The position numbers were made by a program, and so were the translations under genes. 64,000 nt of DNA from Planctomyces sp. SH-PL14 (GTDB lineage: Bacteria; Planctomycetota; Planctomycetia; Planctomycetales; Planctomycetaceae), in the NCBI RefSeq assembly GCF_001610835.1, contig NZ_CP011270.1, forward strand, positions 5,846,001-5,910,000, read 5' to 3'. The notes below the pieces were generated by a model. It was not told where the DNA came from. It saw only the letters and a program-made list of their open reading frames with translations, and made no database searches. This document shows, one piece after another, positions 6,572 through 61,968 of this stretch (within the stretch, counting starts at the first letter, position 1; each line of letters begins with the position of its first letter).

Positions 6572-8335
6572 ATGCCGAACGCGACCAGAACGTTTCCATC
6601 CCAGGTTCCACGCCCCGTGAGCAGCCCGCGCGACAGTACCTTCAGCCGCCAATCCCTGTCGTGGCTGCGGCAATGCCTTTGGGATTTTCTCAAGTCGACC
6701 TCCGGTCCGCGGGCCCGGTCCTGGCTCATCGCACTGCTCGTCTGCATCCTGCTCATGAACGGGATGAACGTCCTCAACAGCTTCGTCCTCCGCGAATTCA
6801 TGTCCGCGATCCAGGGACGGAACTGGCCCCACTTCCAGTGGTACGCCTGGACCTACGCCGTGGTCTTCGGCATCTCGACGCTGATCTCCGTCTCGATGCG
6901 GTTTGCCGAAGAACGCCTCGGCCTCCTGTGGCGGGACTGGATGACGCGGTCCCTCACCTCCACCTACATCGACGGCAAGATCTATCTCCAGCTGCACGCG
7001 GACACCGGACTGACGAACCCCGACCAGCGGATCTCCGAAGACGTCAGAGCCCTGACGGTGACGACGCTCTCGCTGGCGCTGATGATCTCGAACAGCACCG
7101 TGGCGGCCCTGTCATTTGCCGGGGTGCTGTGGGCCATCAGTCCGATGCTGTTCGTCGTCGCCGTCATTTACGCGCTCGTCGGCTCCGCCCTGACCGCGTA
7201 TCTGGGGCGGCCGCTCGTTCAACTCAACTACCAGCAGTCCGACTTGGAGGCGAACTTCCGCGGCGAGCTGATCCACGTCCAGCGGTCCGCGGATGCGATC
7301 GCGCTGGCCGGCTACGAGGGGCGGAGCCGGCACAGCCTTCTCGACCGGATCGAGCGGCTGGTGGCGAACTACCGCAAGATCATCTCGGTCAACCGCAACG
7401 TCGGCTTCTTCACGACGGGTTACAACTACCTGATTCAGCTCGTGCCGATCGTGATTGCCGCGCCGCTGTTCATTGAGCGGGAGGCGGAGTTCGGCGTCAT
7501 CGGACAGTCGACGATGGCGTTCTCGACGATGGTGACGGCGCTCTCCCTGATCGTGACGCAGATCCAGTCGATCTCCGCCTACGCGGCGGTGCTGAGACGG
7601 CTTGGGGAGTTCGCGAACAACGCCTCGCAGGCGATGGAGAAGCGGAAGGTGGGGTGCGTGGGCTGCAAGTCCGAGGCGGACTGCTTCCGGTTCCACGACG
7701 TGACGCTGCGGTCATCGCTCGAGGATGGGGAGGTGCTGGTCCGCGACCTCGACCTGACGATCGAGAAGGGGGACCGGCTGTTGATCTCCGGGAATCACGC
7801 GGCACAGCAGGCGCTGTTCCGGGCGGCGGCGGGGTTGCCGGTGATCGGGACCGGGAGCGTGGTCCGGCCGCCGGAGGGGCGGGTGGCGTACATCCCGGAG
7901 AACCCGTTCCTGCCAGTGGCGACGCTGCGGGACATGCTGATTTCACCCGACGACAAGACGACGACCGATGACGAGATGTGGGCCGTGCTGCGTCAGCTGG
8001 GGCTCGATACGGCGATTCGTCGGGACGAGGCTGGGGCGACGCGGAACTGGACGGATCTGTTGACGCTCAAGCAGGAGCAGCTGGTGGCGGTGGCGCGGGC
8101 GATCCTGGCTCGTCCGGACTTTGCGTTGATCGACAATCTGGCGTCGGCGCTGGATGGGGTGACGGAGCGGCGGGTGTTGAAGCTGCTGCAGCGGCGGGGG
8201 ATCACGTGTGTTTCATTTGGTGTGCAGTTGCCGACGGTGGAGTTTCATGATCGGTATCTGGAGTTGGGGGACGGCGGGACGTGGCAGTTGACGGAGGTGA
8301 CGCCGGAGTTGGCGGCGGAACGGGATCCGGTTTGA
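6572..8335 (+). CDS. SbmA/BacA/ABCD-type ABC transporter with a degenerate ATPase domain
   Basis: 587 residues. An N-terminal membrane domain (about residues 45-340) has the SbmA/YddA family layout, including the LNYQQSDLEANFRGELIHV and RSADAIALAGYE region. A C-terminal nucleotide-binding domain follows (about 370-575), but its key motifs are lost. The P-loop position reads SGNHAAQQALF and lacks GK[S/T]. The signature LSGGEQ is LTLKQEQ. The Walker B region is FALIDNLASALD, with Asn in place of the catalytic Glu. A linker holds Cys at CVGC and again five residues on (CKSEADC). In the family these proteins export or import peptides, fatty acyl groups or cobalamin; SbmA itself works without an ATPase, so proton-driven transport is a reasonable inference. 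Confidence 0.85.
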   Translation: MPNATRTFPSQVPRPVSSPRDSTFSRQSLSWLRQCLWDFLKSTSGPRARSWLIALLVCILLMNGMNVLNSFVLREFMSAIQGRNWPHFQWYAWTYAVVFGISTLISVSMRFAEERLGLLWRDWMTRSLTSTYIDGKIYLQLHADTGLTNPDQRISEDVRALTVTTLSLALMISNSTVAALSFAGVLWAISPMLFVVAVIYALVGSALTAYLGRPLVQLNYQQSDLEANFRGELIHVQRSADAIALAGYEGRSRHSLLDRIERLVANYRKIISVNRNVGFFTTGYNYLIQLVPIVIAAPLFIEREAEFGVIGQSTMAFSTMVTALSLIVTQIQSISAYAAVLRRLGEFANNASQAMEKRKVGCVGCKSEADCFRFHDVTLRSSLEDGEVLVRDLDLTIEKGDRLLISGNHAAQQALFRAAAGLPVIGTGSVVRPPEGRVAYIPENPFLPVATLRDMLISPDDKTTTDDEMWAVLRQLGLDTAIRRDEAGATRNWTDLLTLKQEQLVAVARAILARPDFALIDNLASALDGVTERRVLKLLQRRGITCVSFGVQLPTVEFHDRYLELGDGGTWQLTEVTPELAAERDPV

Positions 8336-25602: not shown

Positions 25603-26805
25603 ATGAGATCTGTCGCATTCATCTCGATTCGCCACGAGGAGCGGAGCCGGCGGAGTCTCCTTCGCCAGTGGGGCAGCTTTCTGGCGGTGCTGGTCGCTGC
25701 TGGCGGTTCGATCTGGTCGAACGCCTGCGCCGCGGATCCCAACGTGCCGAAGGACGCGCCGCCGGAAGCCCGACCGCGAACGCCGAGGGAGGGGATCGAC
25801 TCCGCGCTCGACTGGCTGGCGCGGCATCAGCTTCCCACCGGCCACTGGAGTTTTCAGGACCTCCACCTCCAGTGCGAGGGGGACTCCTGTACGCCGCTGG
25901 TCGGCGAGGACCGCAGGGACGCGGGATCGGTTCGCTCCGATCCCGCGGCAACCGCCATGGCGCTGCTGCCGTTCCTGATGGCGGGCGAGTTGTCCGGAGA
26001 CGCAAAGCCGCATCAGAAGGCGGTTCTCAAGGGACTGCGGCGGCTGGTCCGGTTTCAGAATGCCGAGACCGGCGCTCTCTACGGCAAGACCGGCGGCGGC
26101 TCCCGGATGTATGCGCATGGGCTGGCGACGCTGGCGGTGTGCGAGGCGTACCGTCGTTCGCAGCGGGAGGAGTTCAAGGAGCCGGCGCAGAAGGCGGTCG
26201 AGTTCATTCAGAAGTCGCAGCATCCCGGGCAGGGGGGCTGGCGGTATTACGTGGCGGGGGAAACGCCGACCGGCGGGGACACCTCCGTCTTCGGCTGGCA
26301 GATGCGGGCCCTGGTCTCGGCACGGGCCGGGGAACTCGATGTGTCGCCGAAGTCGCGGGAACTCATGACGGTTTACCTGCGGGTGGCGTCCGGGGGCCAG
26401 CAGTCCGGGCTGTTCGCCTATGAACCCAAGGGGCCGTTCAGTCCGTCGATGACGGGGGTCGGTCTGCTGTCGCTTCAACTGCTGGAGCAGCAGCCGGCGG
26501 ACGAGACCGTGGCGGAGGCGGTCGCCTACCTGCGGCAGCGGCCGCCGGGACGCGGGGCGCCGGACTGCTACCGGGACTACTACGTCACGGACGCAATCCG
26601 ACGCAGCTCTCCGGAACACTGGCCGGAGTGGCGGGAAGCGATGCGGAAGGCGCTCCTCGAAACGCAGGCCCGCGAAGGCTGCCCGCGGGGAAGCTGGAGT
26701 TCGCTGGCTCCCGTCCGCGATCGCTGGTCGGACCTCGGGGGGCGGCTGATGGTGACTGCCTTCAGCACCATGACGCTCCTGGAGTGCGAGGAAGCGAGCC
26801 CGTGA
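25603..26805 (+). CDS. Secreted prenyltransferase/squalene-cyclase-fold protein
   Basis: 400 residues. A basic then hydrophobic N-terminus (RRSLLRQWGSFLAVLVAAGG) is a signal peptide. The mature part has the alpha/alpha-toroid repeats of squalene-cyclase-like proteins: GIDSALDWLARHQLPTGHWS, ATAMALLPFLMAGE, MYAHGLATLAVCEAYRRSQR, AVEFIQKSQHPGQGGWRYYV and MTGVGLLSLQLLEQQPAD. The acidic DxDD motif of true cyclases is absent, so this is the non-enzymatic or unknown group frequent in planctomycetes. GGGGAGGGG ahead of the ATG fixes the start. It follows the beta-helix gene by about 90 bp on the same strand. Confidence 0.82.
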   Translation: MRSVAFISIRHEERSRRSLLRQWGSFLAVLVAAGGSIWSNACAADPNVPKDAPPEARPRTPREGIDSALDWLARHQLPTGHWSFQDLHLQCEGDSCTPLVGEDRRDAGSVRSDPAATAMALLPFLMAGELSGDAKPHQKAVLKGLRRLVRFQNAETGALYGKTGGGSRMYAHGLATLAVCEAYRRSQREEFKEPAQKAVEFIQKSQHPGQGGWRYYVAGETPTGGDTSVFGWQMRALVSARAGELDVSPKSRELMTVYLRVASGGQQSGLFAYEPKGPFSPSMTGVGLLSLQLLEQQPADETVAEAVAYLRQRPPGRGAPDCYRDYYVTDAIRRSSPEHWPEWREAMRKALLETQAREGCPRGSWSSLAPVRDRWSDLGGRLMVTAFSTMTLLECEEASP

Positions 26806-26855
26806 CGGCGGTGCGTTTTCGGGACGTTTGCCTGCGCGAGGGAGGAAGAGGAGTA

Positions 26856-26938
26856 AGCCACAGATGAACACAGATCAACACGGATAAAGGCAGGCAGGCC
26901 AACCTCCCATCTGTGTGCATCTGTGTTTATCTGTGGCT
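26856..26938. repeat. Type F inverted repeat, complete copy
   Basis: Left arm AGCCACAGATGAACACAGAT (26856-26875) and right arm ATCTGTGTTTATCTGTGGCT (26919-26938) match at 19 of 20 positions and would form a long stem between two convergent genes. Confidence 0.75.
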
Positions 26939-26951
26939 CAACTCCTTCGCG

Positions 26952-27890
26952 TCACTCCAGGGTCGTCGCCGCGAAGGTCTCGAGGCCGAGCATGCCGCGG
27001 ACGCGGATCGTTTCCTCCTGCGGCGTGGCGCCGAAGAACCGCTTGAACTCGCGGCTGAACTGCGAGGGGCTCTGGTAGCCGGTCCGGCTCGCCGCGACGC
27101 CCGCCGTGAGACCTTCGAGGGCCATCAGCATCCGGGCTTTGTGCAGACGGATCGTCTTGAAGTACTGCAGCGGGGATGTCGCGGTGACCGCTTTGAAGTG
27201 GTGGTGGAAGGCCGAGACGCTCATCCCGGCGCTGCGGGCCAGGGCGGGGACGTCGATCGCGTCGGCGTAGCGGGCGTGCATCCGCTCAAGGGCCCGCTGG
27301 ATCACGCTCATCCGGCCGTTGACCGCGATCAGCGACCGCAGCGCGCCCCCCTGCTCGCCGCAGAGGACGCGGTACGTGATCTCGCGGATGATCTGCGGGC
27401 CGAGGATCCGGGCTTCGGCCGGCTGCGTGAGGCATTCAAGGAGCCGGACCGTCGCCTCGCTCAGTGCGGCGTCGAGCTGCGTGGAGTACATGCCGTGCGT
27501 GTGGGGGCCGTCTTCGCCCGCGGCGGGCGGCGGGGTGTGTTCCATCTTGAGGAGGAGGTCGCTCAGGACGTGGAGGTCGACTCCGATCGAGACCGCCAGC
27601 AGCGGGCCGTGCGTGGCGACCTCGGTCTCGCACTCGAACGGCATCGGGACCGAGAGGACGAGGTAGTTGTGCGCGTCGTAGGTGTAGACCCGGTCGCCGA
27701 GATAGCCCCGCTTCCGGCCCTGGCCGACGACCACGATGCTCGGCTCGTAGAGGACCGGCGTGCGGGGGATCGACTGGCTGGACCGCATGACTTTCACGCC
27801 GTCGAGGATCGTGGACCCGATGCCGTCGCTGGTCGCGAGGGTGCCGAGGAGCTCGGTCAGGCGGCGGTTGCTGGCGGTGAGGTCGTGCAT
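26952..27890 (-). CDS. AraC-family transcriptional regulator (AraC_N type)
   Basis: 312 residues from MHDLTASNRR. The N-terminal sensory domain (AraC_N, PF06719-like) has PRTPVLYEPSIVVVGQGRKR, then DAHNYLVLSVPMPFECE. The C-terminal ~100 residues hold two helix-turn-helix motifs: VPALARSAGMSVSAFHHHFK and GVAASRTGYQSPSQFSREFK. E. coli YqhC shares this layout and controls an aldehyde reductase and an aldo/keto reductase. Here the divergent gene is an aldo/keto reductase and a zinc alcohol dehydrogenase lies beyond it, so a similar aldehyde response is inferred. An upstream ATG at 27941 is possible; neither start has a strong ribosome site. Confidence 0.87.
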   Translation of the reverse strand: MHDLTASNRRLTELLGTLATSDGIGSTILDGVKVMRSSQSIPRTPVLYEPSIVVVGQGRKRGYLGDRVYTYDAHNYLVLSVPMPFECETEVATHGPLLAVSIGVDLHVLSDLLLKMEHTPPPAAGEDGPHTHGMYSTQLDAALSEATVRLLECLTQPAEARILGPQIIREITYRVLCGEQGGALRSLIAVNGRMSVIQRALERMHARYADAIDVPALARSAGMSVSAFHHHFKAVTATSPLQYFKTIRLHKARMLMALEGLTAGVAASRTGYQSPSQFSREFKRFFGATPQEETIRVRGMLGLETFAATTLE

Positions 27891-42414: not shown

Positions 42415-45400
42415 ATGCGAACGAATCTGTTGATTGCGGTGCTCCTCCTCCTGCCGACCTCCGGCCGGGGGGCCGATGCGCCCTCTCCCGAGCACCTGCG
42501 GTTCTTTGAGAGCGAGGTCCGGCCGCTGCTCGTGCGGCGGTGTCTGGAGTGTCACTCCGCCGAGAAGACCAAGGGGGGGCTGCGGCTCGATTCGCGGGCC
42601 GGGATGCTCCAGGGGGGGGAGTCGGGCGACGCCGCGGTTGTGCCGGGGAAGGCGGATGACAGCCCGCTCGTGCAGGCGATCCGGTATGAGTCGTTCGAGA
42701 TGCCCCCCGTCGGCAAGCTCCCCGAGCGGGAGATCGAGATCCTGACGAAGTGGGTCGCGATCGGAGCCCCCTGGCCGGGCGAAGACACCGCGCTGATCCG
42801 CCGCGAGGACAGCGACAAGCTCACCGCCGAGGACCGCCAGTGGTGGGCCTTTCAGCCCGTCAAAGACCCGCCTCTGCCCGAGGGGACCGAGCCGCAGGCG
42901 ATCGACCGCTTTGTTCACGCGAGGCTGCGTCAGGAGAAGCTGAGTCCGGCTCCCGAGGCGGACCGCGTGACGCTGATCCGCCGCCTGTCGTTCGACCTGA
43001 TCGGACTGCCGCCGTCGCCCGAGGAAGTCCGGGCCTTCGTGCAGGACGACGCGCCGGATGCCTATGAGAATCTCGTCGACTCGCTCCTCAGCCGGCCGCA
43101 GTACGGCGAGCGGTGGGCGCGGCACTGGCTCGACCTCGTCCGCTACGCCGACTCCGACGGCTACCGCATCGACCACTACCGGCCGAACGCGTGGCGGTTC
43201 CGCGACTACGTCGTCCGCTCGCTGAACGCCGACAAGCCGTACGACCGCTTCGTGCAGGAGCAACTCGCGGGGGACGAGATGTTCCCCGGCGACCCGGATG
43301 CGCTCGTCGCCACCGGGTACCTGCGGCACTGGATCTATGAGTACAACAGCCGCGACGCCGAAGGACACTGGGCGATCATTCTCAACGACATCACCGACAA
43401 CGTCGGCGATGTGTTCCTCGGCCTGGGGATGCAGTGCGCCCGCTGCCACGATCACAAGTACGACCCGATCCTCCACAAGGATTACTACCGGCTGCAGGCG
43501 TTCTTCGCCTCGCTGATTCCCCGCGACGAGACCGCCCCGGCGAGCGACGCCGACCGGCAGGCCTACGACGAACAGCTCCGGAAGTGGGAAGAGGCGACCG
43601 CCGAGATCCGGGCCAAGATCGAGGAGCTGGAAGCCCCGGTCCGCAAGGCGGCCCGCGACAGTGCCGTCGGCCGGTTCCCGGAGCGGATCCAGGCGGTCTA
43701 CTGGAAGCCGGACGGCGACAAGCTGCCGTACGACCACCAGCTTTCCGCGCTGATCGAGCGACAGGTCGAGTTCGAATACGAGCGGCTCGATACCCGCTTC
43801 AAGGGGGAAAAGAAGGAGCAGCTCATCGCCCTCAAGAAGCAGCTCTCCGCCTTCGACAAGCTCCGCCCCGCGCCGCTCCCGGTCGTCATGGCGGCCCGCG
43901 ACCTCGGCCCCGCCGCGGCCCCGACCTTCATCCCCGGCAAGGCGAAGGACCCGATCGAGCCCGGCTTCCTGACGCTGCTCGATCCCGCCCCCGCCAGCCC
44001 GGCGGCGCTGCCGAACTCAACCGGCCGGCGGACCGCGCTCGCCCGGTGGCTGACCCGATCCGAGCATCCGCTCACCGCGCGAGTCCTCGTGAACCGGGTC
44101 TGGCAGCAGCACTTCGGCCGGGGGCTCGCCGCGAACGCGAGCGACTTCGGCAAGCTCGGCGAGGCTCCCTCACATCCCGAACTCCTCGACTGGCTGACGA
44201 CGCAGTTCGTCCGCGGTGGCTGGAGCATCAAGGCGCTGCACCGGCTGATCGTCACGTCGGAGACGTACCGGCAGTCGAGCACGAATCCACAGCTCGCCCT
44301 CTGCCGCGAGGTCGATCCGGAGAACCGTCTCCTGTGGCGGGCCAATACCCGCCGGCTCGATGCGGAGCAGATCCGCGACTCGATCCTGGCCGCTTCGGGA
44401 CAGCTCAAGCTCGGTGTCGGCGGTGAAGGGGGGAACGGCGACAGCCCGCGGCGGACCCTCTATGTCCGCCAGATGCGGAACGCCCGCGACCCGCTGCTCG
44501 ACGCCTTTGACCTGCCGCAGTTCTTTGCCAGCGAGTCCTCCCGCAACACGACGACGACGCCGGTCCAGTCGCTGATGCTCATCAACAGCCCCGAGCTCCT
44601 GCGGTACGCCAGCCAGCTCGCCGACGGCGTGTGGGGGACCGCCTCGACCGACCCGTCGCTCCGGATCAGCGATGCCTGGTGGCGGGTCTACGGCCGGGCG
44701 CCGACGTCCGACGAACTGGCGGCGGCGACGGCGTTCGTCGCCGAGCAGGCCGAGCGGATCGCCGGCGGCGCGCAGGAGCGGGCGACGACCGAGATCGCGA
44801 CGGGGAAGATCCCGTACCGCGACGGCCAGGCGGTCCTGATCGGGACCGATCCGAAGCAGAAGCGGCTCCGCGTGCCGCACTCCTCGATGATGAACGGCGA
44901 CCACGATGACGCGGAGGGGAGCGACTTCACCGTCGAAGGGTTCTTCCAGCTCCGCTCGGTCTACGACACCGGAGCGGTCCGGCCCCTCGTCTCCAAGTGG
45001 GCCGGCGCGGGGGACCAGCCGGGGTGGTCGCTCGGCGTGACCGGCAAGGGGTCCCGCCGCAAACCGCAGACGCTCGTTGTCCAGATCCACGGCCGCAAGC
45101 TCAGCGGCACGTTCGGCGAGGCGGCGGTCTTCTCCGATCACCTCGTCGAGCTGAACAAGCCGTACTTCGTGGGGGCCGTCGTGCGGCTGGCGAAGGCCGG
45201 TGGCAAGAGCGGTGGCAAAGGCGAGCCGGGGTCGATCACGTTCTACCTCAAGGACCTGTCGAACGACGACGAGCCGCTGCAGACGGCGCAGGTCGCGCAT
45301 GACATCACCGGCGGGTTCGACAACGAGGAACCGCTGTCGATCGGCTGCCGCAGCCGCGGGCAGGAAGGGTTCGACGGCCTGATCGACGACATCCGCCTCA

Positions 45401-45636
45401 CCGGCCGGGCCCTGGCTCTCAACGAACTCCTCTACACCGCCGAAGGGGTGGCGAAGGGGACGCTCGGGTACTGGCAGTTCGAGGTTGAGCCGGGGGTCCT
45501 GCAGGACAGCTCGGACAGCCGGCTCAACATCCAGTGGACCGCGGCCGAATCGCCGAGCAACGACCCGCGTCGGCGGGCGTTCGTCGACTTCTGCCACGCG
45601 CTGCTGAACTCGAACGAGTTTTTGTACGTCGATTGA
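42415..45636 (+). CDS. DUF1549/DUF1553 (PSCyt1-PSD1) protein with LamG insert
   Basis: 1073 residues with a signal peptide (RTNLLIAVLLLLPTSGRGAD). The planctomycete cytochrome C domain follows, with haem motif CLECH at about residues 43-47. DUF1549 covers about 150-370 (ERWARHWLDLVRYADSDGYR, CARCHDHKYDP). DUF1553 begins near 540 (RTALARWLTRSEHPLTARVL, VWQQHFGRGLAANASDFG). A LamG/ConA-like lectin domain is inserted at about 825-1045 (DFTVEGFFQLRSVYD, GFDGLIDDIRLTGRALA) before the last DUF1553 segment (RRRAFVDFCHALLNSNEFLY). The partner DUF1501 gene follows. Such pairs are thought to degrade complex polysaccharide outside the cytoplasm; direct evidence is lacking. Confidence 0.92.
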   Translation: MRTNLLIAVLLLLPTSGRGADAPSPEHLRFFESEVRPLLVRRCLECHSAEKTKGGLRLDSRAGMLQGGESGDAAVVPGKADDSPLVQAIRYESFEMPPVGKLPEREIEILTKWVAIGAPWPGEDTALIRREDSDKLTAEDRQWWAFQPVKDPPLPEGTEPQAIDRFVHARLRQEKLSPAPEADRVTLIRRLSFDLIGLPPSPEEVRAFVQDDAPDAYENLVDSLLSRPQYGERWARHWLDLVRYADSDGYRIDHYRPNAWRFRDYVVRSLNADKPYDRFVQEQLAGDEMFPGDPDALVATGYLRHWIYEYNSRDAEGHWAIILNDITDNVGDVFLGLGMQCARCHDHKYDPILHKDYYRLQAFFASLIPRDETAPASDADRQAYDEQLRKWEEATAEIRAKIEELEAPVRKAARDSAVGRFPERIQAVYWKPDGDKLPYDHQLSALIERQVEFEYERLDTRFKGEKKEQLIALKKQLSAFDKLRPAPLPVVMAARDLGPAAAPTFIPGKAKDPIEPGFLTLLDPAPASPAALPNSTGRRTALARWLTRSEHPLTARVLVNRVWQQHFGRGLAANASDFGKLGEAPSHPELLDWLTTQFVRGGWSIKALHRLIVTSETYRQSSTNPQLALCREVDPENRLLWRANTRRLDAEQIRDSILAASGQLKLGVGGEGGNGDSPRRTLYVRQMRNARDPLLDAFDLPQFFASESSRNTTTTPVQSLMLINSPELLRYASQLADGVWGTASTDPSLRISDAWWRVYGRAPTSDELAAATAFVAEQAERIAGGAQERATTEIATGKIPYRDGQAVLIGTDPKQKRLRVPHSSMMNGDHDDAEGSDFTVEGFFQLRSVYDTGAVRPLVSKWAGAGDQPGWSLGVTGKGSRRKPQTLVVQIHGRKLSGTFGEAAVFSDHLVELNKPYFVGAVVRLAKAGGKSGGKGEPGSITFYLKDLSNDDEPLQTAQVAHDITGGFDNEEPLSIGCRSRGQEGFDGLIDDIRLTGRALALNELLYTAEGVAKGTLGYWQFEVEPGVLQDSSDSRLNIQWTAAESPSNDPRRRAFVDFCHALLNSNEFLYVD

Positions 45637-58384: not shown

Positions 58385-58671
58385 CCGCGAGACGGGACAG
58401 GGAGAGTTCGGCCTGCCCAATCTATCGCAAACGGAAAAACGGCCGAGCCGGCTCACTCCGTCGTGGCCTGAGCCTTTCTGCGGGCCGGCACGCCATCGTC
58501 GCGGTGCCGGACACCCACGCTCCAACGGACGGGTGGTCTCGCCGGCGGCTTAACAGATCGTGAACAATTTCCAGGATCCGCGACCCGTTTCGCCTCTACG
58601 CGACATTAAAGACCTGTGGCTCACGTCCGCGCTCCCGGACACCCGAGGCAGCGATCCTTCAAAGGTCTTTG

Positions 58672-61164
58672 ATGAAACCCATCGTCTTCGCCGGTCTGGT
58701 CTTCAGCGGACTGGCCCTGGAAGTCGCCTATCGCAACTCCCGCGATGCCCAGGCTCAGACGCCCGATGAGCGGCCGCCCGGCGCCGGTTCGGCCAGCGGC
58801 TTTGACCGGCTCCCCCAGGGCGATCGGCGCGGCGGGGGCCGCGGTCGGCAGGCGGATGGCCCCGGCGGTCCCGAAGGTCCCGGTGGACCGGGCGGATTCG
58901 GCGGCCCCGGAATGGGGCCTGGCGGACCGGGCGGTCCCGGAGGCTTCGGCGGCGGGACGCGCGAGCTGGTCTCTCAGTTCGATCAGGACGGAAACGGGTG
59001 GCTGAACAAGGACGAGCGTCAGGCGGCGCGAAAAACAGCACAGCAGGGGGGCCGCGGCGGACGGGGGGGACCCCGGTTTGGCGGTCGGCCCGACCCGGGC
59101 GAGTTCCTCGCCGGTCCGGCTCTTGAGGCGCTCGACACGGACGGGAACGGCAGTGTCGCGGCGGATGAACTCTCTGCCGGAATCGGCAAGCTCTTCCAGC
59201 GGGCGGCCGGCGACAGCCGACAGATCACGCCGGCGGAACTCGGGCAGGCTCTCGATGCGATCGTGCCCCGGCCGGACTTCGGCCCGGGCGGGGGCGGGCC
59301 GGGAGGTGGAGGTCCGGGAGGATTCGGGCGTCCGCCGGGACCGGATGGTGCGGAAGGACCGCGCGGGCCGGCCGGGGCACCCGGGGAACCGGAGCGACGG
59401 GGACGGGGTGACGAGCCGATGGGGGGACGCGGTCCGGGGCGCGGCTTCGGTCCGGGGTTCGCCCTCGCCGGGGCGATCGCGCGGGAGGCGGACCGCAATC
59501 AGGACGAGTCTCTGACGCTCGATGAGCTCCAGAAGGCGGGACGGGACCTGTTTCAGAAGGGGGACGCGGATCATGACGGGGAGTGCACCGCCGTGGAGCT
59601 GAAGACGGCGATCGGCTCGCTGATGGCCTCCGCTCCCTTCGGCGGTCCCGGCGGCGGCCCTGGGGGTGGACCCGGCGGCCCGGGAGGACGGTCGCGGGAG
59701 GCGGGGCGGCCCGGGCCGAAGGTGGAGTCTTCGCAGGTCCGCAATTACGGCGACGAGCCCCTGTTTGCTTCCGACGTGCTGCGGACGCTGTTCCTGACCT
59801 TCGAGAACGACGACTGGGAGAAGGAGCTCGAAGACTTTCACGGGACCGACGTCGATGTCCCGGCGACGCTGAAGGTCGATGGCCAGAGCTACTCCAACGT
59901 CGGCGTCCACTTCCGCGGGATGTCCTCCTACGGCGGTGTCCCGACGGGATCGAAGCGGTCGCTGAACGTGGCGATCGATCTGGCGGACGGCAAGCAGCGG
60001 CTGATGGGGCAGAAGACCCTGAACCTGTTGAACGCCCACGAGGACAGCTCGTTCCTGAGCTCCATTCTCTACTCGCACATCGCCCGCAAGCACATCCCGG
60101 CTCCGAAGGCGAACCTCGTCAAGGTGGTCATCAACGGCGAGAGCTGGGGGCTGTACGTGAACGTGCAGCAGTTCAACAAGGACTTCGTGACGGAGAACTT
60201 CGGCGGCGACGGCGGCGGGGCGCGGTGGAAGGTGAGCGGCAGCCCCGGCGGCGGAGGGGGGCTCGAGTACCTCGGGGATCACGTCGACGACTACCGGCGG
60301 CGGTACGAGATCAAGTCGTCGGACAGCAACAAGTCGTGGAAGAAGCTCATCGAGTTCTGCCGCGTCCTGAACGAGACTCCGGCCGACCAGCTCGAAGCGG
60401 CGATCACGCCGCTCCTTGATGTCGAGGGGGCGCTCTGGTTTCTGGCGCTCGACGTGGCGCTCGTCAACAACGACGGCTACTGGGTCCGGGCGAGCGACTA
60501 CAGCCTGTATCTCGATGGAGCGGGGAAGCTGCACCTCATTCCGCACGACATGAACGAGGCCTTCCATCCCGCGATGATGATGGGGATGGGGGGCCCGGGT
60601 GGGCCGGGAATGGGCGGCCCGGGCGGCTTCGGAGGCCCCGGTGGGCCGGGTGGACCGGGTCCTGGCGGTCCCGGATTTGGCGGCCGTGGTTTCGGTCCGG
60701 GAGGGGGAGGGGGAGGCCGCGGCGGTAACAACGCCGGCGGAAACGAAGAGGGCCGCGGACGGCGGCCGATGGGTGAAGGGGACGAGCCGCGCGGACCGCG
60801 GGGGAATGCCCAGGGAGGCCGCGGGCTCGAACTCGATCCGCTCGTCGCTCTCGACGATCCCCGCAAGCCGATGCGGAGCAAGCTCCTCGCCGTGCCGAAG
60901 TTCCGCGAGCGGTACCTCGAGATGGTGCGGACGATCGCCCGGGAGGACATGAACTGGGAGGTGATCGGTCCTGTCGTCGCGCAGTACCGGGCGCTGATGT
61001 CCGCCGACGTTCAGGCCGATACCCGGAAGCTCAGTTCCTTCGAGGCGTTCGAGGCGGCGGTCGCGTCCCGCCCCTCCGGCGGTGCGGCGCCGACCGAAGG
61101 TCGCGGCCGGGAGATCAGCCTGCAGTCGTTCTTCGAAGGCCGCCGGGCGTTCCTGCTCCGCTGA
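58672..61164 (+). CDS. CotH-kinase-fold protein with four EF-hands and Gly/Pro-rich linkers
   Basis: 830 residues with a signal peptide (KPIVFAGLVFSGLALEVAYR). Four EF-hand loops are visible: DQDGNGWLNKDE, DTDGNGSVAADE, DRNQDESLTLDE and DADHDGECTAVE, spaced by Gly/Pro-rich linkers. From about residue 360 the CotH domain runs: DVPATLKVDGQSYSNVGVHF, RGMSSYGGVPTGSKRSLNVA, QKTLNLLNAHEDSSFLSSIL, LVKVVINGESWGLYVNVQQF, and the kinase-like centre WFLALDVALVNNDGYWVRAS with LHLIPHDMNEAF. A long Gly-rich run splits the C-terminus. CotH proteins are protein kinases in spores; the secreted planctomycete type is uncharacterised. It precedes a DUF4956 gene, as in many genomes. Confidence 0.9.
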   Translation: MKPIVFAGLVFSGLALEVAYRNSRDAQAQTPDERPPGAGSASGFDRLPQGDRRGGGRGRQADGPGGPEGPGGPGGFGGPGMGPGGPGGPGGFGGGTRELVSQFDQDGNGWLNKDERQAARKTAQQGGRGGRGGPRFGGRPDPGEFLAGPALEALDTDGNGSVAADELSAGIGKLFQRAAGDSRQITPAELGQALDAIVPRPDFGPGGGGPGGGGPGGFGRPPGPDGAEGPRGPAGAPGEPERRGRGDEPMGGRGPGRGFGPGFALAGAIAREADRNQDESLTLDELQKAGRDLFQKGDADHDGECTAVELKTAIGSLMASAPFGGPGGGPGGGPGGPGGRSREAGRPGPKVESSQVRNYGDEPLFASDVLRTLFLTFENDDWEKELEDFHGTDVDVPATLKVDGQSYSNVGVHFRGMSSYGGVPTGSKRSLNVAIDLADGKQRLMGQKTLNLLNAHEDSSFLSSILYSHIARKHIPAPKANLVKVVINGESWGLYVNVQQFNKDFVTENFGGDGGGARWKVSGSPGGGGGLEYLGDHVDDYRRRYEIKSSDSNKSWKKLIEFCRVLNETPADQLEAAITPLLDVEGALWFLALDVALVNNDGYWVRASDYSLYLDGAGKLHLIPHDMNEAFHPAMMMGMGGPGGPGMGGPGGFGGPGGPGGPGPGGPGFGGRGFGPGGGGGGRGGNNAGGNEEGRGRRPMGEGDEPRGPRGNAQGGRGLELDPLVALDDPRKPMRSKLLAVPKFRERYLEMVRTIAREDMNWEVIGPVVAQYRALMSADVQADTRKLSSFEAFEAAVASRPSGGAAPTEGRGREISLQSFFEGRRAFLLR

Positions 61165-61299
61165 GTGCGGGCCGTCCGTTGAAGGATCGCCTCGCCCGTC
61201 GTTTGTCCTGTCTCCGTTCTCCCCCGTCCGCGGCTGCGGACACCGTATGATGAGCGCCGTCCGACTCCGGCTCGGCGGCGCCTGCCGAGGAGTCCTGCC

Positions 61300-61968
61300 T
61301 TGCCCGAGTGGCTTTATCCCATGGTGGAAGCTCCGCATCTTCCGATGAGTGCCCTCCTAGCGCGGCTGATCTTTGCCATCGTCGGCGGGACGCTGGTGGC
61401 GGGGATCTATCAGCGGACCCGTCGTGCCAGCAGCATCGCGCCGACCTTTCCCGCGACGCTCGTCCTGCTGTCGGTGCTGATCGCCGTGGTGACGCAGGTG
61501 ATCGGAGACAATGTGGCGCGGGCCTTCAGTCTGGTGGGGGCGCTTTCGATCGTCCGTTTCCGGACGGTGGTTCAGGACACGAAGGACACGGCCTTCGTGA
61601 TCTTTGCGGTGGTGGTGGGGATGTCGATCGGGGCGAACCAGCCGGTGGTTGCGGCCGGGGGGATCGTGGCGGTGGGGCTGACGGCGTGGCTGTTCCGGGA
61701 CCGCCCGGCGCAGGCGTTGTCGATTGACCGTCAGATCGTGCTGGAGGTGAAGCTGGGGTGGGTCGATGATGTCGAGGTGGTGGTCCGGAGTGCTGTTGCG
61801 GCGCACATCCTCGATATTGAGCCGCTGGCGTTGTCGACGTTGAAGAACGGGGCGGGGTTGGAGGCGCGGTTCCGGATGCGGTTGTTGCCTTCGGTGCGGC
61901 TGACGGAGCTGGTAGCGGATCTGAACCGGATCAACGGTGTGCAGAGCGTGGAGTTGCGGACGGAATGA
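61300..61968 (+). CDS. DUF4956 membrane protein
   Basis: 222 residues. About four helices (LLARLIFAIVGGTLVAGIYQ, FPATLVLLSVLIAVVTQVIG, DTAFVIFAVVVGMSIGANQP, VVAAGGIVAVGLTAWLF) surround the family motif DNVARAFSLVGALSIVRFRT. The C-terminal third is a cytoplasmic beta-alpha domain (HILDIEPLALSTLKNGAGLE). The TTG start at 61300 has GGAG at the right distance; ATGs at 61321 and 61345 are alternatives. DUF4956 genes often pair with CotH and VTC polyphosphate polymerase genes; only the CotH partner is here. Confidence 0.87.
   Translation: MPEWLYPMVEAPHLPMSALLARLIFAIVGGTLVAGIYQRTRRASSIAPTFPATLVLLSVLIAVVTQVIGDNVARAFSLVGALSIVRFRTVVQDTKDTAFVIFAVVVGMSIGANQPVVAAGGIVAVGLTAWLFRDRPAQALSIDRQIVLEVKLGWVDDVEVVVRSAVAAHILDIEPLALSTLKNGAGLEARFRMRLLPSVRLTELVADLNRINGVQSVELRTE

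Follow-up and report, generated by a model that had tools for sequence, protein, structure and literature searches.

The planctomycete protein P0001 belongs to a clade of ABCD/YddA-type half-transporters in which the motifs for ATP hydrolysis were lost once, with a single origin on the tree, and in one nested branch of which the nucleotide-binding domain (NBD) was deleted later than the ATPase had died. As the best explanation of the whole, to which we assign a probability of about 0.5, we propose that this is an old ABCD/YddA-type clade whose dead NBD stays docked and whose members transport independently of ATP, the substrate in many of them being a gluco-oligosaccharide. That the members of the clade are ATPase-dead is, judging by their motifs, nearly certain.

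The P0001 gene

P0001 is encoded in a window of 64,000 nucleotides (the whole stretch of DNA that was analyzed) from Planctomyces sp. SH-PL14, positions 5,846,001 to 5,910,000 of contig NZ_CP011270.1. Its features are given below in coordinates of the window, all on the + strand.

6572..8335, +, whole gene of P0001, a dead-NBD ABCD/YddA-type half-transporter of 587 aa (ORF, Pfam)
6704..7621, +, membrane domain, residues 45-350, the region used for the trees (Pfam ABC_membrane_2 at residues 50-300)
7037..7039, +, E156, equivalent of SbmA E193
7241..7243, +, D224, acidic and clade-fixed, candidate proton site
7247..7249, +, E226, equivalent of SbmA E276
7655..7666, +, linker CxxC, CVGC, residues 362-365
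7691..8305, +, pseudo-NBD, residues 374-578 (AlphaFold2 blocks mostly >90; selection)
7787..7819, +, P-loop remnant SGNHAAQQALF, residues 406-416 (motif alignment)
7898..7900, +, E443 replacing the Q-loop Gln (motif alignment)
8060..8080, +, altered signature LTLKQEQ, residues 497-503 (motif alignment)
8120..8155, +, Walker B and D-loop remnant FALIDNLASALD, residues 517-528 (motif alignment)
8222..8224, +, V551 replacing the H-loop His (motif alignment)

The frame is open over 587 codons, as the initial annotation of this DNA had described it, and runs uninterrupted to a TGA stop; the alignment reproduces the losses reported there for the P-loop, the signature and Walker B. Beyond these motifs, P0001 also lacks the Q-loop Gln and the H-loop His; the position of the Walker A Lys is occupied by Gln, and in Walker B the Asp is retained (D521), with N522 standing at the position of the catalytic Glu. 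Of the set of features by which an ABC ATPase is recognized (P-loop, Q-loop Gln, signature Gly, catalytic Glu and H-loop His) P0001 has none, and the Pfam ABC_tran profile matched it at E 0.022 only, under the cut-off. The combination of an ABC_membrane_2 domain with a fused NBD fold was recovered by Pfam (ABC_membrane_2, 3.3e-38; SbmA_BacA, 1.7e-11), by the AlphaFold2 model and by the fold matches. The GC content at third codon positions (0.91 for the membrane part, 0.86 for the NBD) and the recurrence of the same losses in 68 other dead-NBD members make chance or a sequencing slip look unlikely.

Elsewhere in the window, dispersed repeats of ~50-230 bases in both orientations are scattered within the first 30 kb, one of them sitting in the gap upstream of P0001:

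2918-3164, 6135-6412, 10113-10582, 16361-16793, 18578-18888, 20471-20530, 23781-24106 and 29252-29581, dispersed repeats

A gene of planctomycete type, encoding a PSCyt1/PSCyt2/PSD1 protein, is located at 42415-45636 (+), and two long ORFs overlap on opposite strands at 58621-61338 (-) and 58669-61164 (+), the former frame having no Pfam match.

Loss of the ATP site across the family

Scanning genome contigs yielded 90 confirmed relatives, 80 of which were kept, and further loci were taken from genomes in the taxonomic family and phylum of the window. The 86 proteins aligned were sorted by their motifs into 69 with a dead NBD (P0001 included), 14 with an intact one and 3 without NBD; L099, truncated at a contig end, was counted only where the residue in question is present. 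The 69 dead-NBD members span Verrucomicrobia, Chromatiaceae, Methylococcaceae, Myxococcota and other groups, and the frames of all of them are open. In the phylum of the window the gene is rare, as 5 of the 392 genomes drawn matched at E 1e-20, three of them carrying the dead-NBD form (the genome of P0001, G161 and G207), the other two an intact relative.

According to the motif table, the catalytic Glu, the Q-loop Gln, the last P-loop Gly, the Walker A Lys and the signature Gly are each present in 14/14 intact proteins, and the H-loop His in 10/14. In the dead-NBD members, by contrast, both the catalytic Glu and the H-loop His are absent (0/68 each), while the Q-loop Gln persists in 2/69 and the last P-loop Gly in a single protein of the 69. 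Other positions are eroded in part: the Walker A Lys is found in 34/69, the signature Gly in 35/68 and the Walker-B Asp in 57/68, and the first two of these counts leave residual nucleotide binding possible in some members. The lost ATPase that had been claimed for P0001 is accordingly confirmed at the level of sequence, and the loss is common to all 69 members compared. Two ABC proteins of the YddA side, L133 (genome G452) and L136 (genome G450), have separately degenerate NBD motifs, Asp or Gly standing in for the catalytic Glu, which suggests recurrent ATPase loss in the wider family.

Among the best-ranked matches of the open-licence PMC literature, no report of a dead-NBD SbmA/ABCD relative or of the family of P0001 was found; the word 'degenerate' is absent from PMC13316013 and PMC12003926.

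Phylogeny and the NBD-less branch

Only columns of the membrane domain entered the trees. A quick tree united the dead-NBD and NBD-less proteins in one clade (SH-aLRT 99), and a careful tree, to which more intact relatives were added and from which 17 rows (near-copies, SbmA and L099) were left out, recovered it as a 64-row clade with 100/100 support. The nearest intact groups to the clade were L128-L132 and L105/L108/L112. SbmA was placed outside the clade in the quick tree, on a very long branch that makes its placement unsure.

The three NBD-less proteins, of 363-402 codons from stop to stop, end just past the last membrane helix, and no recognizable NBD remnant was detected at their loci (best tblastn E 0.07). 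Of 288 genomes searched within one order, 48 matched at E 1e-60, intact-type copies included; the 30 best matches, taken as loci (the short matches G731:C152, G655:C60 and G666:C673 being left out), contained six further NBD-less genes, downstream of which no NBD remnant was found at E 0.01. In a tree of 30 earlier and 23 new rows, with six duplicates left out, the nine NBD-less proteins grouped together with 100/99 support, nested in a 24-row clade (100/100) that also holds P0001. The three states even occur side by side, the draft genome G455 encoding the intact L131, the dead-NBD L153 and the NBD-less L095 together, and L093, from the same isolate, being another dead-NBD copy. The initial annotation had suggested that P0001 may be a natural intermediate between the ABCD and SbmA forms, which is supported in kind, given the series of intact NBD, dead NBD and no NBD, and is not supported for the path to SbmA itself (see below). 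In one of the short matches, G731:C152, a 356-residue open frame at ~26021-26977 has 44% identity to an NBD-less protein, which is in the range of intact-type copies; it may represent a further case of NBD loss, or else a split gene.

Retention of the degenerate domain

The NBD of the dead-NBD members evolves under purifying selection, its dN/dS being below 1 in all 26 disjoint pairs, with a median of 0.16 versus 0.11 for the membrane domain (rough NG86 estimates). Three of the 26 values exceed 0.42, with a maximum of 0.67, and for P0001 and L114, a pair with a high dS of 1.43, the NBD value was 0.225. The view that the domain is maintained was therefore justified. The situation named beforehand as speaking against it, namely close homologues with an intact P-loop and a lone copy under relaxed selection, was not the one encountered, as the homologues lack the P-loop too.

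Constraint is distributed unevenly within the protein. Pairs of dead-NBD members have mean identities of 0.627 (membrane part) and 0.442 (NBD), pairs of intact ones 0.522 and 0.531, respectively, and the mean entropy in the family is 1.19 for the membrane domain versus 1.92 for the NBD. Within the NBD (~37 effective dead-NBD sequences versus ~9 intact ones), entropy is raised at the P-loop (1.90 versus 0.65) and the D-loop (2.39 versus 0.99), and nearly unchanged in helix 1 (0.72 versus 0.81) and at the Q-loop/membrane face (0.95 versus 0.83). AlphaFold2, supplied with 45 sequences, modeled P0001 with an overall pLDDT of 82 and pTM of 0.77; 10-residue blocks of the NBD mostly exceeded 90, and the membrane stretches 177-188 and 323-329 were below 50. 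The best Foldseek matches of the model were ABCD1 (3.6e-22) and Rv1819c, with TM-scores of 0.5-0.6 over the whole chain, and VIA-align superposed it on ABCD1 with Z 25.5 (408 residues, 3.8 A). Considering the folded core and the preserved membrane face, we infer that the NBD is a docked domain no longer needing ATP.

The linker cysteines, in which the initial annotation saw a hint of metal or redox control, are real in P0001 (CVGC and a third Cys), and CxxC is enriched in the linker of dead-NBD proteins (24/69 versus 0/15 intact). Most members, however, lack it, so that such control is a mere possibility for a subset, and a family-wide switch is disfavoured. The linker inserts of L051, L056 and L066 (C-x-HHRRTxECPxC) resemble a small metal-binding knuckle.

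Sugar-enzyme neighbourhood

Neighbours were counted by tblastn with named queries instead of ORF clustering, on account of antisense shadow ORFs; 1,2-beta-oligoglucan phosphorylase (SOGP) and GH94 were told apart by the better match to one representative each, Pfam/NCBIfam naming being applied to representatives only. In the first sample, with flanks ranging from 2 to ~10,000 bases, GH94 or SOGP was present at 22/69 dead-NBD, 2/3 NBD-less and 0/14 intact loci, i.e., at 24/72 loci of the clade. With an F5/8-domain protein (~1,050 residues, weakly glycosidase-like), GH1 and MdoG/MdoH added, the counts rose to 40/69, 2/3 and 0/14, respectively (Fisher p 3.7e-5 for the sugar-enzyme link, in a test that is not independent because the sequences are related, and nearer intact sisters turned out to be linked as well), which leaves 29/69 dead-NBD loci without any such neighbour. 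The closest relative found, L114 (62% identity), has GH94 34 bases downstream. At the Chromatiaceae loci L045, L050, L053, L058, L061, L067, L070 and L078 the dead-NBD gene is accompanied by MdoG and MdoH, and at most of them also by GH1.

In the second sample SOGP lies directly behind 5/6 NBD-less genes, so that it follows 7/9 of them in both samples, and, once duplicates are removed, a sugar-enzyme gene occurs within ~0.8 kb downstream at 10 of 17 dead-NBD loci. Among the seven loci that lack one, two (L181 and L184) have membrane domains in common with L044 and L060. A specific link to the dead NBD, as the 0/14 of the first sample had implied, was dropped, since two of five nearer intact sisters are linked to sugar enzymes (of the remaining three, one is on a contig of 4.5 kb): L132 is part of a same-strand run of SOGP, F5/8 protein and transporter (seen in L189), and L131 adjoins an F5/8 protein. 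L165 (seen in L192) and L167 (seen in L193) are dead-NBD proteins with SOGP neighbours, and SOGP is found beside intact, dead-NBD and NBD-less forms alike, which suggests that the lineage is one of oligoglucan transporters in which the use of ATP was abandoned. The sugar link does not explain the ATPase loss, and, as the intact L131 and L132 share it, may predate it. Pfam analysis of ten proteins, nine encoded at family loci, revealed no common theme at loci without these enzymes.

None of SOGP, GH94, F5/8, GH1 and MdoG/H is encoded around P0001 in the 64-kb window. Its genome yielded no match to SOGP_N or to the F5/8-domain protein in searches of which neither returned a positive-control match, and its sole GH94 match is a long frame ~210 kb from P0001, which reads by its domains as a cyclic-glucan-synthase-like gene. 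That the SOGP-linked relatives move gluco-oligosaccharides seems somewhat better than an even bet; for P0001 itself such a role is less probable. OpgG and OpgD act on beta-1,2-glucan. Enzymatic functions have been reported for both (PMC10514313).

Proposed mechanism and alternatives

Transport without ATP by the clade is, in our opinion, likely. The following scheme could account for it. The clade would comprise old, widespread ABCD/YddA-type half-transporters in which ATP hydrolysis was lost once; the dead NBD would remain folded and stay docked to the coupling helices, and P0001 would most likely act as a homodimer. The substrate, in a direction that we infer along with the energy source, would be driven across by a gradient of protons or of another ion, or would cross by facilitated diffusion with cytosolic trapping. 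In many relatives it would probably be a gluco-oligosaccharide, most plausibly 1,2-beta-oligoglucan, which the neighbouring phosphorylase would then split to glucose 1-phosphate.

The tight linkage with enzymes in part of the family, and the general experience that dead enzymes often turn into scaffolds, would also fit a protein that transports nothing and serves glucan enzymes as a membrane scaffold or sensor. We regard this as unlikely, though the best of the alternatives, because the membrane domain is more conserved than the NBD in terms of entropy, and one branch has deleted the NBD, on which a scaffold would probably rely for docking, and retained its SOGP neighbour.

Slightly less credible is that P0001 is half of a heterodimer in which an intact partner hydrolyzes ATP, on the pattern of TAP or TM287/288. 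ABC exporters in which one side is degenerate do exist, and some genomes of the family do contain several ABC_membrane_2 copies, some of them intact. The genome of P0001 (8.44 Mb, one contig), however, has a single ABC_membrane_2 match, P0001 itself, and hence no intact partner within this family, and a single copy was also found in 13 of 27 other genomes, most of them drafts and one of the 13 with the NBD-less form only. For the ABC_membrane_2 family this argues for a homodimer; moreover, Walker A is lost as well, and NBD-less relatives exist.

Still binding or slowly hydrolyzing ATP through an unusual site would be compatible with the partial retention of the Walker A Lys, the Walker-B Asp and the signature Gly, but is improbable when the catalytic Glu and the H-loop His are missing in 68/68 members, the Q-loop Gln in 67/69 and the last P-loop Gly in 68/69, when P0001 has Gln in the Lys position and when a nested branch dispenses with the NBD altogether.

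As regards the energy source, SbmA is the obvious reference, and its glutamate ladder consists of E193, E203, E269, E276, E287 and E378 (PMC13316013). In P0001 only the equivalents of E193 and E276 (E156 and E226) are acidic, both being shared by intact ABC relatives, and the other four glutamates are missing. Two residues from E226, position 224 is Asp in 76/76 rows of the clade (including the second readings L155 = L043 and L154 = L075); nine intact sister sequences have Gln, Glu, Arg or Lys there, and 17/17 more distant ones have Arg. Asp224 is therefore a candidate proton site; together with Q289 it represents the clearest clade-fixed polar change. R110, E113, E114 and Q330 were rejected as clade-specific, for most of the intact sisters L128-L132 have them too. 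According to alignment lengths, 46 residues precede residue 47 in P0001 (50 from stop to stop) versus 83 in SbmA, and the coupling-loop spans are 31/35 versus 22/27; in the three NBD-less relatives aligned, the spans are likewise 31 and 35 and the N-termini 37-46 residues. Of three marks of a SLiPT (no NBD, glutamate ladder, TM0 with lost coupling helices) P0001 has none in full. A true intermediate on the line to SbmA/BacA is for these reasons very improbable, even though SbmA too lacks an NBD and has a membrane fold in common with P0001: four of the six ladder glutamates and a TM0-length N-terminus are absent, the coupling-loop spans are of full length even where the NBD is gone, and SbmA branches outside the clade, long as its branch is.

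Decay into a pseudogene, to which the faster evolution of the NBD than of the membrane domain in 24/26 pairs might point, is very unlikely in view of NBD dN/dS below 1 in every pair, open frames in 69 members and one origin across several phyla.

Within the preferred reading, ATP-independent transport by a clade with a dead, docked NBD, a more specific version is tentative, with the odds somewhat against it: a primary pump would have become an ATP-independent, probably proton-coupled oligosaccharide transporter, separately from SbmA and using a different acidic residue, Asp224, through intact, dead and missing NBD steps beside SOGP, with the dead NBD serving as a structural or regulatory dock.

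Implications and comparison with known systems

The wider question is how secondary transporters such as SbmA originate from ABC transporters. In a study of 2026, SbmA is derived from a YddA-like protein, whose membrane domain is speculated to have become separated from the NBD, and split genes are cited (PMC13316013). The clade described here suggests another order, with ATPase death first and NBD deletion later. Its natural before/after sets beside the same enzyme make it testable what the membrane domain needs for ATP-free work. It also proposes a 1,2-beta-oligoglucan transporter for some SOGP-carrying bacteria, and illustrates that the presence of ABC-transporter domains does not by itself imply an ATPase.

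SbmA/BacA, the proton-driven SLiPT peptide importer, is akin to P0001 in its homologous ABC-type membrane domain (Pfam 1.7e-11) and in two acidic ladder positions, and works, as is likely for P0001 too, without an ATPase; unlike it, P0001 has kept the NBD and full-length coupling-loop spans, and lacks four ladder glutamates and a TM0-length N-terminus. The eukaryotic ABCD1-4, which rank with the best PDB matches to P0001 in both sequence and fold, are ATPases moving acyl-CoA or cobalamin, whereas P0001 has no ATP site by sequence. In the heterodimeric ABC exporters TAP, TM287/288 and BmrCD one NBD lacks catalytic residues and the partner is intact; in the genome of P0001, on the contrary, the only family member (ABC_membrane_2) is itself ATP-site-dead. 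The YddA/BclA and Rv1819c types share the domain order of P0001, Rv1819c (6tqe) being among its best sequence and structure matches, but E. coli YddA has the ATP motifs that P0001 lacks, and BclA and Rv1819c perform ATP-driven transport (PMC12003926). Finally, in Listeria lin1841-lin1843, a putative ABC-type transporter proposed for Sopn intake stands beside SOGP (PMC3960220), as the transporter does in the SOGP-linked relatives of P0001, from which the Listeria system, compared by its description alone, differs in having an ATP-binding protein.
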